Below, piece by piece: positions 45,052 to 50,512 of a stretch of 64,000 nt of DNA. Numbering within the stretch: the stretch's first letter is position 1; each line of letters begins with the position of its first letter. Position numbers and translations under genes: made by a program. The stretch is from contig NC_009662.1 of NCBI RefSeq assembly GCF_000010325.1, positions 454,501 to 518,500 on the forward strand, read 5' to 3'. This DNA comes from Nitratiruptor sp. SB155-2 (lineage in GTDB: Bacteria; Campylobacterota; Campylobacteria; Campylobacterales; Nitratiruptoraceae). The notes below the pieces were generated by a model. The model was given only the letters and a program-made list of their open reading frames with translations, did not search any database and was not told the origin of the DNA.

Positions 45052-46533
45052 ATGAAAAAGATAGGGTTGTTCTTAATCGTCTCTATTCTTATAGGTTTAG
45101 TTGGTATCTATGGATTACTTTTTACAAAAAGTGGAAACCAAGTTTTAAAACCGGAAATAGAAAGCTACCTTAATCAAAAACTACCTGTGAAAGTTGCATT
45201 ACGAAAGTTTCAAATCGCTCCGATGGATATTGTATTGGAGATTGGAAAATCGATTGCCGTTGTACACGGGGATCTAAATCCGCTTCAAAGACGTTTCGAC
45301 CTGACATACAACATCAAAATAGATGATTTAGCGGCTCTTGAACCGTTGCACCGTCAAAAACTGCGAGGGCCTTTGAATACGAAGGGGCGTATTAAAGGCA
45401 CTTTAGATCAATTTACGATCAAAGGAATCAGTGATATAGCAAAGAGTGGTACCGAATACACAGTTGTAGTAAAAGAGTTGAATCCTGAAAGTCTAACTGC
45501 AACCATAAAAAATGCAGATTTGGCGCAATTACAATACATGGTTTATCAGCCCGTGCGTACATATGGCTTTCTTAATAGTGATATCAAACTTGATAGTCTG
45601 AATGTAAAGAATCTAAAGGGAAGTATTGTTTCGCAAATCTTGCACGGAAAAGTGAATGAAAAAGAGATCGAGAAAGAGTTTGGCATAAAGAAAGCAACAA
45701 TCAACTATAGGATTGATCAAAAAAGTATATTAGATGGTCAAAAAATCACTACAAAGATGTCATTTGATTCTACCATCGCGACAGCAAATTTGGAGAATGT
45801 TGTTTATAACTTGAAAAACAACACTCTTACGATCCCTTATGTTGTCGATATCCCAAATCTTTCAAAACTCTATTTTTTAACCAATCGGCGTATGCGGGGA
45901 AAAATCACTGTAACTGGAAAAGTGCAAAAAGCGAAAGATCTTGTTGTCACTGCACATTCACAAACTCTTGGCGGAACTGTTGATGCGGTTTTGAAAAACA
46001 GTGATTTACATGCAAAACTCAAAAATATCGAAGTAACGGCACTTACTTATATGCTCTATTATCCAAAAATCTTTGATTCCTCTATGGAAGCAGATCTAAA
46101 ATACAATATATCAACTCAAAAAGGAACGCTGGTTGCCAAAGCGTATGATGGCAGGATCTTGCCAAATAAAATGACATTTTTGCTCCAGCAAATGGCAAAC
46201 TTCGATATCACAAGAGAGGTGTATAAAGTAACTGCGCTTCATAGCATCATAGATAAAAAGAAAATCTTATCCAATCTCGATATGGAGAGTCGACTGACTC
46301 ATATCAGTTCAAAAGACGCTCTTGTTGATCTCCAGAAAGAGTATGTGAATGCAAAGTTGAAAGTGGAAATCAAAAAAAGACCAGTTTTTGTAAAAATCAA
46401 AGGCAGTCTCAAATCACCAAAAGTTTCCGTTGACGCGAAAGCTTTGTTGAAAGATCAGGTGAAACAGAAATTGCAGAAAAAATTGAAAAACAAAATACCG
46501 GCCGAAGCCGAAAAATTGTTGAATCTTTTCTAG
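45052..46533 (+). CDS. AsmA-like inner membrane-anchored protein
   Basis: 493 residues. One N-terminal membrane helix (GLFLIVSILIGLVGIYGLLF) followed by beta-rich periplasmic repeats (LRGPLNTKGRIKGTLDQF, RGKITVTGKVQKAK, VFVKIKGSLKSPKVSVD) of the AsmA/DUF748 type, and a basic C-terminus. The family is linked to lipid transport between membranes and outer-membrane assembly. AAGGAG upstream. Confidence 0.65.
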   Translation: MKKIGLFLIVSILIGLVGIYGLLFTKSGNQVLKPEIESYLNQKLPVKVALRKFQIAPMDIVLEIGKSIAVVHGDLNPLQRRFDLTYNIKIDDLAALEPLHRQKLRGPLNTKGRIKGTLDQFTIKGISDIAKSGTEYTVVVKELNPESLTATIKNADLAQLQYMVYQPVRTYGFLNSDIKLDSLNVKNLKGSIVSQILHGKVNEKEIEKEFGIKKATINYRIDQKSILDGQKITTKMSFDSTIATANLENVVYNLKNNTLTIPYVVDIPNLSKLYFLTNRRMRGKITVTGKVQKAKDLVVTAHSQTLGGTVDAVLKNSDLHAKLKNIEVTALTYMLYYPKIFDSSMEADLKYNISTQKGTLVAKAYDGRILPNKMTFLLQQMANFDITREVYKVTALHSIIDKKKILSNLDMESRLTHISSKDALVDLQKEYVNAKLKVEIKKRPVFVKIKGSLKSPKVSVDAKALLKDQVKQKLQKKLKNKIPAEAEKLLNLF

Positions 46534-46600: not shown

Positions 46601-47260
46601 ATGAAAAAAAGGATTGTAATCGTAGAAGATGAAAGCCTCGTGGCTTTTGAGATCCAAAGTGCACTTGAGCAAGTTGGATTTGAGTGTATAGCGATTGTTG
46701 ATGATGCCAGTTTGGTTCTAGAAACAATACGCGACACCAAACCGGATGTAGTCATAATGGATATTTATCTTGCAAATGGTACAAATGGAATCGATGCGTG
46801 TCGGATTGTAAAAAAAGAGTTTGATATACCAATCATCTTTTTGACAGCATATTCAGATCAAACAACACTTCGTGAAGCCCTCGATTGCCAGCCCGATGGT
46901 TATTTGATCAAACCTTTTCGTAGACCTGAACTCTATGCAGCAATCAATCTTGCTTTGGGCAAGAACGCTTTCGATAACAAAATATTGGAGTTGTGCGAAG
47001 GTGTGCAGTATGATAAGAATAGATCAGTATTGAAAAAGGATAACCAGGAGATAACACTCACAAAAAAAGAGAGGGAACTGCTGCATCTCCTTCTTCAAAA
47101 CAGAGGAAAACTTGTTTCCTTCGAAAGAATCGAATTCGAATTGTGGCCCCAGAAACCTGTAAGCGAGACGACTCGTAGGACACTCATTCACAGACTTCGC
47201 TCAAAACTTTCAAAAGATTGCCTCAAAAGTATTCCAGGTATTGGGTGTATTCTCCAATAA
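46601..47260 (+). CDS. OmpR-type response regulator
   Basis: 219 residues. Receiver with acidic VEDE, phosphoacceptor Asp in DVVIMDIYL (residue about 52), Thr in IIFLTAYS, Lys in YLIKPFRRP; C-terminal winged helix (LTKKERELLHLLLQNRG, TRRTLIHRLRSKLSKD). Likely phosphorylated by the kinase encoded at 47579-49408. Two pairs of 11-base spaced direct repeats lie right after it, upstream of a small secreted protein gene. Confidence 0.88.
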   Translation: MKKRIVIVEDESLVAFEIQSALEQVGFECIAIVDDASLVLETIRDTKPDVVIMDIYLANGTNGIDACRIVKKEFDIPIIFLTAYSDQTTLREALDCQPDGYLIKPFRRPELYAAINLALGKNAFDNKILELCEGVQYDKNRSVLKKDNQEITLTKKERELLHLLLQNRGKLVSFERIEFELWPQKPVSETTRRTLIHRLRSKLSKDCLKSIPGIGCILQ

Positions 47261-47301
47261 TGTGACAAAAATGTGACATTTTAGAACGTTTTTGGAACGT
47301 T
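47261..47301 (+). promoter_or_regulatory. Two pairs of 11-base spaced direct repeats upstream of the small secreted protein gene
   Basis: TGTGACA at 47261 and 47272, and GAACGTT at 47284 and 47295; both pairs are spaced 11 bases, one helical turn, the binding pattern of OmpR-family dimers. A TATAAT box follows at 47309-47314, so the second pair covers the -35 region. The neighbouring response regulator is the natural candidate to bind here. Confidence 0.6.
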
Positions 47302-47316
47302 CTTCGTTTATAATTC

Positions 47317-47334
47317 TTTCGATTTTTATCGAAA
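47317..47334 (+). promoter_or_regulatory. Hairpin in the leader directly before the ribosome binding site
   Basis: TTTCGAT-TTTT-ATCGAAA, a 7-bp stem whose 3' side touches the AAGGAG site of the following gene. It could modulate translation, for example with temperature. Confidence 0.4.
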
Positions 47335-47346
47335 AAGGAGAGTACT

Positions 47347-47574
47347 ATGAGAATGATAGTTGGAATCTTGTTTGTAGCAGCATTTTTGTATGCCGATACG
47401 ATAAATCCATACTGGTTTCAGGAGGATAGCAAAGAGAAGCTAGAAGTTGAAGTTATTTCCAAAGACCAAAATGAGTGGGTTAACCCGTATTGGTTCCAAG
47501 AGACCAGACAGCATAATAAGGCAAAATTGCAAAGATTGACGACAATTCGAGAACAGATCCACTTTGACTCGTGA
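47347..47574 (+). CDS. Small secreted protein with duplicated NPYWFQE motif
   Basis: 75 residues. Signal peptide MRMIVGILFVAAFLYA, then a short mature part with NPYWFQE at the N-terminus and again at the middle, joined by an acidic linker (EDSKEKLEVEVISKDQNEW). No family recognised. It lies between a response regulator (upstream, same strand) and a histidine kinase (convergent, 4 bases apart) and has probable regulator-binding repeats in its promoter, so it may be the ligand, accessory or main target of that two-component system. Confidence 0.6.
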   Translation: MRMIVGILFVAAFLYADTINPYWFQEDSKEKLEVEVISKDQNEWVNPYWFQETRQHNKAKLQRLTTIREQIHFDS

Positions 47575-47578
47575 TGCG

Positions 47579-49408
47579 CTAAAAAGTGATCATATATTTC
47601 GTTCCATGGGACGTATCGATATCGATACGTCCCTTAAGCTGATGCTGAACCAATATATGGACGAGTTTCAATCCCAAACTCTCTTTTGATGCATGTGAGC
47701 TCTTGAATCCCTTTCCCGTATCTTGAATAGTGAGAACATATAGATCCCCTTTTTGCTCTAAAGTTATAAAAATAGCCCCTTTGTTATCCGGAAAAGCGTG
47801 TTTGAAGGCATTTGTAAGGAGCTCATTGATAATGAGACCCGTGTATATCGCTTTATCCATAGAAAATATTGCGTTACTTTTTACATGAATTGCTATATCT
47901 TTTTGTGAGAAAAGGTGTTGTAGTTCACTAGCCAATGTTTGGATATATTCTTGTGCGTCAATGTAGGCTATATTGTCACTTTTGTAAAGCATCTCGTGGA
48001 CGCTGCTCAACGCTCTGATACGGCTCTCTGCTTCTGTGAGGATCGATTGCATCTTTTGGTTGCTCAGTTTGTCAGATTGCAATCGTAAAAGGGATATAAT
48101 GATTTGAAGATTGTTTTTTACGCGGTGGTGGAGCTCTTTGAGGAGGACATTTTTCTCTTCGAGCGCTTTTGTGAGCTCTTGTGTCTTTTGATCTGCATAG
48201 GCTTCAAGTTTAGCTTTTTCGATCTCTTTTTTTTCTAAAAGCTGTTTGGTAGCACGCTCTTTTTCTGCTTTGTATGCGTTGATTCTTGCAGACAATGCCA
48301 TAGAAAAGAGAATTGCCTCAGAAAAAATCGAGATTTTTCCTAAATATGGAAAGTGATCGATCCATGATATAAATCCGGCCTGTTTCAGACCAAGCAGGAC
48401 GGCAACAACGAACAGAAGACTCCATCCAGTAATATAATAGATAGTATGTTTGTATCCTTTGAAATAGGCATACAATCCAATAACAATCATAATGAAAAAC
48501 ATAATCATATAGATGATCCGCTGTGGTGTGGTACTGACGATATCTGTAATGTTGAGTAGATATAGAATGAGGCTAAAAGCGATTAATAATTGAAGAAATT
48601 TATGAATTCTTGGAAAGTTTTTTTTTGTTTGTAAAAACTCGACTGTAAACATAATGATCGAGAGAGCCATAATAAGCAAAAGTGTATATATAGCGGTTGT
48701 ACTCATAAAAAAGTTTTTGAAAAAGAGTGGGAAAAATCCCGATTCGAAAAGTTCTAATACGAGAAACGAACTGACCATAATGACATAGTAAAGGTAACTT
48801 ACATCCTTTGTCATAAAAAGTAGAAAAATATTATATGCGATCAGTGCTAGCATTGCACCCAGAAACAAAAAGGTAACAAGTTTGTCTTTTTCATTTTTTG
48901 CTTCGTAGTATGCTGGATCGGCAAGATTGAGTTTTGCGAAGAACCCCACATTTTGATCCTGGGCTTTGAGCAAAAAAGTTTTTTCCTCATATGGCTTGAA
49001 AAAGATTAAAAAGGGATGGGTGAGATAGTGTGAGGGCAGTTTTTTTAATCGGTATCCACTTTCATATACTTTGGAGCTATTGAGATCGTACAGCCAGATC
49101 TTTTCTTGGATAGGATAGTCATATTCTAAAACTTTTGTGATAGCTTTATCAAAAGGGTTTTTTATGCGAAAGAGAAGCCAAAGGGTAGCATCGTATTGAT
49201 AACCGAGCAATAATTTATTGACATTCGTTTGTTGAAATAGCTGTTTGTGATGCAAAAGATAGTTTAGATTTGACTGAGAGTTTCTATCGAGATAGTAGAG
49301 TGTAGAAGGTGTGATATTTTTTATTTTGTTATCATCGAGAATGATCGTTTGCGCAAAAGAGAAAGAGAATGTGTATAGAAATATACAAAAAAAATATACT
49401 CTTTTCAT
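47579..49408 (-). CDS. Sensor histidine kinase with 7TMR-DISM sensor and HisKA_2 kinase
   Basis: 609 residues from ATG 49408 (AAGG, spacing 5; GTG 49414 is less likely). Signal peptide, then a 7TMR-DISMED2-type periplasmic domain (residues about 20-160), seven membrane helices (about 170-370), a coiled coil, and a HisKA_2 kinase: phospho-His in LLKELHHRVKNNLQIIISLL, N-box LIINELLTNAFKHAF, G-boxes IQDTGKGF and ESLGLKLVHIL. The periplasmic domain resembles carbohydrate-binding folds. Its partner is probably the regulator at 46601. Confidence 0.85.
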   Translation of the reverse strand: MKRVYFFCIFLYTFSFSFAQTIILDDNKIKNITPSTLYYLDRNSQSNLNYLLHHKQLFQQTNVNKLLLGYQYDATLWLLFRIKNPFDKAITKVLEYDYPIQEKIWLYDLNSSKVYESGYRLKKLPSHYLTHPFLIFFKPYEEKTFLLKAQDQNVGFFAKLNLADPAYYEAKNEKDKLVTFLFLGAMLALIAYNIFLLFMTKDVSYLYYVIMVSSFLVLELFESGFFPLFFKNFFMSTTAIYTLLLIMALSIIMFTVEFLQTKKNFPRIHKFLQLLIAFSLILYLLNITDIVSTTPQRIIYMIMFFIMIVIGLYAYFKGYKHTIYYITGWSLLFVVAVLLGLKQAGFISWIDHFPYLGKISIFSEAILFSMALSARINAYKAEKERATKQLLEKKEIEKAKLEAYADQKTQELTKALEEKNVLLKELHHRVKNNLQIIISLLRLQSDKLSNQKMQSILTEAESRIRALSSVHEMLYKSDNIAYIDAQEYIQTLASELQHLFSQKDIAIHVKSNAIFSMDKAIYTGLIINELLTNAFKHAFPDNKGAIFITLEQKGDLYVLTIQDTGKGFKSSHASKESLGLKLVHILVQHQLKGRIDIDTSHGTKYMITF

Positions 49409-49471
49409 TCTCACCTTTCATTATATATTGTTGACATGTTCGAGATTTTGAAGTATAATTTCACTCGCTTT

Positions 49472-49705: not shown

Positions 49706-50512
49706 ATGATTGAAGTGGCTACTAATTTGATCAAACAGGCAGATTATCTTCTCATTACGGCTGGGGCTGGTATGGGAGTGGATAGTGGGCTCCCTGATTT
49801 TAGAGGAGTTCATGGATTTTGGAGGGCTTATCCGGCAGCGAAAAAGCTCGGCCTTCGATTTGAAGAGTTGGCAAATCCAAGATGGTTTGAAAAAGACCCA
49901 AAACTTGCATGGGCGTTTTATGGCCATCGCCTGCATCTTTATCGTGATACAAATCCTCATAAAGGATTTCGACTGCTTCTAGAGATTGCTCAGAGAAAAA
50001 AAGAGTATTTTGTGGTTACTTCAAATGTGGATGGGCAATTTCAAAAAGCCGGTTTTGATGAAATGAAAATCGATGAAGTTCATGGAAGCATTCACTATTT
50101 GCAGTGCATAAAGCCTTGTCGTGATGATATATGGAGTGCTGATGGAGTTGATATTCAAATTGACACGGAGCGTTTTTTAGCAAGGGAGCCTTTGCCAAAA
50201 TGTCCTTATTGTGGTGCGGTTGCCAGGCCTAATATTTTAATGTTTGGAGATTGGCATTGGATATCTTCTAGGGAAGATGCGCAACAAGGACGTTTCAAAA
50301 ACTTTCTGCATCGGGCGAAAGAATCCTTGGTTATTGTGGAGATTGGAGCCGGCACTGCAGTACCTACGATTCGTCTTTTAGGTGAACAAATATCGCAAAA
50401 TTATAATGCCCCTTTGATTCGTATCAATCCGAGAGAAGCGCAAGGAGCCACTGTGGGCCTTGCATTAGGAGGGCAAGAGGCAATAGAAAAAATATATGAA
50501 ATTGTACAATGA
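49706..50512 (+). CDS. Sir2-family NAD-dependent protein deacetylase
   Basis: 268 residues. Sirtuin motifs: GAGMGVDSGLPDFRG, VTSNVDGQFQKAGF, catalytic His in EVHGSIHYLQC, zinc pairs LQCIKPC and KCPYCG, and IEIGAGTAVPTIR. The sequence is of the divergent bacterial SIR2 group, longer at the Zn lobe than CobB. Removes acyl groups from Lys; Acs at 59926 is a classical sirtuin substrate, but the link here is inference. No TIR, effector or other partner is beside it, so no sign of an antiphage Sir2 system. Confidence 0.82.
   Translation: MIEVATNLIKQADYLLITAGAGMGVDSGLPDFRGVHGFWRAYPAAKKLGLRFEELANPRWFEKDPKLAWAFYGHRLHLYRDTNPHKGFRLLLEIAQRKKEYFVVTSNVDGQFQKAGFDEMKIDEVHGSIHYLQCIKPCRDDIWSADGVDIQIDTERFLAREPLPKCPYCGAVARPNILMFGDWHWISSREDAQQGRFKNFLHRAKESLVIVEIGAGTAVPTIRLLGEQISQNYNAPLIRINPREAQGATVGLALGGQEAIEKIYEIVQ

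Follow-up and report, generated by a model that had tools for sequence, protein, structure and literature searches.

CpxP and Spy are small periplasmic stress proteins that carry two LTxxQ motifs and are controlled by the CpxRA system. The 7TMR-DISM sensor kinases and the IscR-like operators of Fe-S and oxidative-stress genes are further points of comparison for the locus described here. In the PHO boxes, two 11-nt direct-repeat units are bound head to tail and replace the -35 element (PMC4415409). The locus, or the loci of homologues of its small gene, shares some features with each of these systems, and the locus centers on a small exported protein gene placed between the two genes of a two-component system.

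The window, as we call the whole 64-kb stretch of DNA that was analyzed, is part of a single-contig genome of 1,877,931 bases (G000). On the forward strand it encodes a 219-aa OmpR/PhoB-type response regulator (46601–47260) with Response_reg and Trans_reg_C domains (PF00072 and PF00486, above the cut-off at 9.7e-23 and 1.9e-13, respectively), and on the reverse strand a 611-aa sensor kinase (47579–49414), the ORF of which has an alternative ATG at 49408. The kinase contains DISMED2, 7TMR-DISM_7TM, HisKA_2 and HATPase_c domains (PF07696, PF07695, PF07568 and PF02518) and thus qualifies as a 7TMR-DISM histidine kinase. It has the DISMED2 and seven-helix DISM domains in common with the described sensors of this type, and the comparison gave no sign of the small protein being the kinase ligand. 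The small gene shares its strand with the regulator gene and is convergent with the kinase gene. In the relative G036 it is kept between the two, the regulator being 89% and the kinase 83% identical to those of the window.

The small gene (47347–47574, + strand) is an ORF of 75 aa. Residues 1–16 (47347–47394, ending in ...FLYA|D) were recognized by inspection as a signal peptide, which leaves a mature protein of ~59 aa; judged by eye, the hydrophobic N-terminus shows the same pattern across all homologues. We infer from it that the mature protein is Sec-exported and periplasmic. Two NPYWFQE boxes occupy residues 20–26 (47404–47424) and 46–52 (47482–47502). The G036 copy, 74 aa long due to an in-frame codon deletion, is 80% identical, and 23 of the 38 substitutions between the two genes fall on third codon positions. 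In the 14 codons of the boxes all changes are synonymous, with six codons differing between the genomes, and in both genomes the codon usage of box 1 differs from that of box 2 within the one gene. Since NPYWFQE is unchanged in the protein despite the differing codons, the repeated word is under selection, and the ORF with its two boxes is a genuine gene. No Pfam match was found up to E 1, CpxP-type families included, and searches of Pfam, NCBIfam, PHROGs and PDB sequences yielded no usable family. The sequence contains no LTxxQ, and the predicted structure of the mature protein has a mean pLDDT of 58, i.e., no confident fold. No paper on the protein or on the NPYWF motif was found in the literature searched.

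Two pairs of direct repeats with a period of 11 precede the small gene. The upstream element, TGTGAC-N5-TGTGAC (TGTGACAAAAATGTGAC, 47261–47277, + strand), is followed by GAACGTTTTTGGAACGTT at 47284–47301. Such paired repeats occur only once in the window; simulated windows gave an expectation of 0.017 pairs per window for 6-mers and none in 60 simulations for 7-mers. The repeat block (47255–47301) has one difference from that of G036, and the following ~46 bp have ~13. Within it we propose a 16-bp regulator box, AGAACGTTTTTGGAAC (47283–47298, + strand; consensus RRAACGYTWTTGRAAC), and 10 nt past the box there is a probable -10 hexamer, TATAAT (47309–47314, + strand), assigned by consensus only.

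The box RRAACGYTWTTGRAAC is found upstream of the small gene in G000, G036 and G090. In G090 the small gene is preceded by TTGGAACGCTTTTGAAAC, in register with TAGAACGTTTTTGGAAC of the other two genomes, and the box also precedes the Sel1-type gene that immediately follows the regulator, where a promoter scan for period-11 repeats detected TTGAAACGCTATTGAAAC. All four promoters (G000, G036 and two of G090) have a -10-like hexamer 10 nt after the box, compared to a background of 2.8% of window positions, in effect a window-wide rate. From base composition, ~0.05 sites matching the consensus would be expected in a genome of 1,877,931 bases, the consensus itself being drawn, after the fact, from four promoters of which one pair comes from close relatives. 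Among 197 loci scanned, the strict form of the box matches the two G090 places only, and with a looser form the promoters of G000 and G036 match as well, as do a few places scattered elsewhere; the search of whole genomes covered the strict form, GAACGT-N5-GAACGT. The box is absent from the inspected small-gene promoters of G064 and of the homologues at a second position, locus B (described below). G138 has the regulator, and the one small gene it has, at locus B, lacks the box. In the other pair-bearing genomes, i.e., the six relatives with no small gene at this place, no perfect box was found within 4–10 kb of the regulator. Sites of the TGTGTCAAAATTGTGACA type seen elsewhere, some near a CRP/FNR-like gene, are inverted TGTCA/TGACA repeats and were set aside as not being the same direct repeat.

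A box at this distance upstream of the -10 is the arrangement of PhoB-type activation. The window promoter thus shares with the PHO box the two 11-nt repeats in place of a -35, here 10 nt from the -10, but the half-site differs (RRAAC/TGRAAC). The proteins differ as well: the regulator is well below the cut-off of TIGR02154, the PhoB equivalog (93 bits against the 296 needed), and the kinase is of the HisKA_2 type with a 7TMR-DISM sensor. The original prediction, made from the letters of the window, had described a 75-residue exported protein with two NPYWFQE copies, a regulator upstream, a convergent DISM-type kinase downstream and two 11-spaced pairs of direct repeats. The ORF, the third-position bias and the box conservation in G036 bear out the first, the Pfam domains and ORF strands agree with the placement of the pair, and the repeats are there and nearly identical in G036. 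Its suggestion that an OmpR-type protein binds the repeats gains from the GAACG-type repeat, which resembles a regulator site and recurs in another genus 10 nt before a -10. These sequence features support the GAACG-type repeat as a candidate site of the adjacent OmpR-type regulator.

The small gene and the pair do not always travel together. Nine genomes of the family have an orthologue of the regulator, taken as >50% identity. In six of them (G249, G051, G213, G103, G115 and G138) the small gene is absent between regulator and kinase, the genes of which overlap or are 43–65 bp apart and therefore leave no room for an intervening gene. In G090 the gene of an exported Sel1-repeat protein (L053:13436-14143) lies between regulator and kinase, and the small gene is found beyond the kinase, ~4.5 kb from the regulator, its protein being only ~32–35% identical to that of the window. 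G064, conversely, has a homologous two-box gene after the same upstream neighbor (the gene at 45052–46533 in the window) with no regulator or kinase there, and its best match to the regulator is 36% identical and not an orthologue. Other members of the protein family are located far from any such two-component system. Pair and small gene are thus separable, and the small protein is not a fixed or required part of the neighboring sensor system. The original prediction had offered the absence of the small gene from relatives keeping the pair as grounds for giving up a secreted signal or accessory sensed by the kinase, and this absence from the place between the two is seen in six of nine genomes, which speaks against a fixed trio. 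When the trio was sought in relatives, as it had proposed, G036 kept all three genes, whereas six genomes lacked the small gene there and G064 the regulator. In view of the six pair-only relatives, of G064 and of the distant family members, the idea that the small protein serves the kinase as a dedicated signal or accessory is not supported.

The window protein belongs to what we define here as the NPYWF-box exported family: short proteins with a signal-peptide-like N-terminus followed by at least one NPYWF(Q/E)(E/D) box. Five relatives have homologues at locus B, in four cases divergent from the gene of an HtrA-type membrane-anchored protease, and G018 and G036 have a separate one-box protein. 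When 399 genomes of the order were scanned with a coding pattern, 27 matches were obtained, compared to two in the reversed control; the matches comprise Sir2, a few others and, for the rest, small exported proteins in two families of Campylobacterales. In the other family, the proteins come from one genus, are 84–108 aa long and have two boxes within ~35-aa repeats. Profile-profile comparison of the proteins of the two families gave 3.2e-13, a match resting mainly on the boxes. The exact NPYWFQE coding word is found in 14 places in 84,980 species genomes and at five loci inside an ORF of at least 25 aa, four of which encode small proteins of Campylobacterales that begin like a signal peptide. 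A match on a Woeseiaceae contig was discarded as a 26-aa chance frame, and NPYWFEEDP in the Sir2 proteins of relatives as a coincidental likeness in cytoplasmic proteins; the Sir2 protein near the small gene (49706–50512 of the window) reads NPRWFEKDP. Against TIGR04429 (Phr-type secreted Rap inhibitor), a locus-B homologue scored 17 of 25 bits over residues 1–16 (the signal peptide) only, and the window protein had no match. Another one-box exported protein, with NPYWFEE (L058:5157-5363 and L059:3545-3751), has a Fur-box-like stretch, TGATAATTATTATTA, upstream. Judging by these sequences, the tiny exported NPYWF-box proteins are a lineage-restricted family of vent-type Campylobacterales, previously unnamed and undescribed.

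A 25-bp near-palindrome, AAATNRGAY-N7-RTCYNATTT, precedes the copies at locus B and, in the other family, three out of the four genes; it is exact in most copies and with one mismatch in G064. Approximately 24 sites were found over 12 genomes (one to three each), compared to about one in the reversed control. Other sites precede sufB, desulfoferrodoxin, a Redoxin-family peroxidase, thiG and a nifS-type gene, as well as the gene of an acetolactate-synthase-like TPP enzyme; in G000 the site lies before sufB, which sufC and sufD follow (G000:C1:1032710). Like IscR-like Fe-S and oxidative-stress operators, the palindrome precedes sufB, superoxide reductase and thiol peroxidase genes, and in addition several NPYWF genes. 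The putative operator ties these sister genes to Fe-S supply and oxidative defense. The window's own small gene, however, carries no such site, nor do the other copies at its position (locus A), so for these copies a stress role is carried over from the homologues.

We consider it moderately likely that the small gene is an output of the adjacent two-component system and that its product is an envelope stress effector of the periplasm. In the window genome and two relatives, the kinase would phosphorylate its partner regulator, which would bind to RRAACGYTWTTGRAAC, the 11-bp direct repeat located 10 nt before the -10, and activate transcription of the small gene in the manner of PhoB. A promoter activated in this way would make the small protein an output gene of the system. 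Once exported by Sec, the protein would act in the periplasm as an envelope stress effector, a role proposed because homologues elsewhere are wired to the Fe-S/oxidative-stress operator. That the small protein came under the control of the neighboring regulator is our best reading; for the system as a whole, we infer that the regulator binds the DNA and activates the gene, and that the small protein is located in the periplasm and acts there as an effector.

The position of the small gene between regulator and kinase, and its being a probable target of the regulator, would also suit a CpxP-like accessory that docks on the outer domain of the kinase and feeds back on it. In being small and exported, in having a short motif twice and in lying beside a two-component system that probably controls it, the protein resembles CpxP and Spy. 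The window protein, however, has neither LTxxQ nor a match to any Pfam family, those of the CpxP type included, is about half as large and is not predicted to form a helical hairpin. Moreover, it occurs in relatives without the system, as in G064, which possesses the small gene but no orthologous regulator; six genomes have the pair alone, and homologues belong to a different regulon. The accessory role is therefore unlikely, and feedback on the kinase is possible, not favored.

The box itself may instead be a ligand word for a periplasmic receptor, either the DISM sensor or the HtrA/DegS-like PDZ protease of locus B, with the same peptide signal coming under different stress regulators from genome to genome, as a report of damage to the envelope or by oxidation; we hold this distinctly unlikely. 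The small genes of locus B (L052:5589-5980 and L056:4889-5140) diverge from the gene of an HtrA/DegS-like protease that has a single PDZ domain. The ligands of the DegS PDZ domain end in Y-x-F, and the NPYWF box contains Y-W-F.

Control of the small gene by classical PhoB through the TGTGAC repeats, as a phosphate-starvation (Pho) gene, is quite improbable in spite of several points in its favor. The pstS promoters of the family carry TGTAAC-N5-TGTAAC, which resembles the TGTGAC repeat of the window, and TGTRAC-N5-KGTRAC has three sites in the whole of G000, before the small gene, before pstS and in one unlikely place; one of the three sites in G064 also precedes the small gene, yet too near the start codon for ordinary activation, and the joint pattern was widened after the site had been seen. 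The kinase adjoins phoU in G051, and one exported-protein gene intervenes in G249 (L034:677-1342 and L033:4046-4714 for the phoU-kinase neighborhoods; pstS is divergent from phoU in G051). However, a classical PhoB-like regulator is present separately in G000 and most relatives, pstS is missing from three of the genomes with the pair, and the G090 small gene has no TGTGAC repeat. The phosphate link of the small gene is a lead. Finally, the identical heptads repeated behind a signal peptide, the ~35-aa repeat units of the other family and the failure of modeling to predict a fold might suggest that the boxes are cores released from a repeat-bearing precursor as a secreted peptide signal, but this is very improbable, since the neighborhoods of the copies have no recurring gene for a processing enzyme, exporter or receptor, the boxes are unevenly spaced and several copies have one box only.

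Small exported proteins are frequently overlooked in annotation, and the output gene proposed here belongs to a family open to testing, with an aromatic heptad that is strictly conserved. An uncharacterized 7TMR-DISM two-component pair now has a proposed binding site. Should NPYWF turn out to be a recognition word, it would count as a periplasmic stress signal of a new kind. The putative operator, unrecognized before, would join the sister genes to Fe-S repair and superoxide defense in vent-type Campylobacterales.
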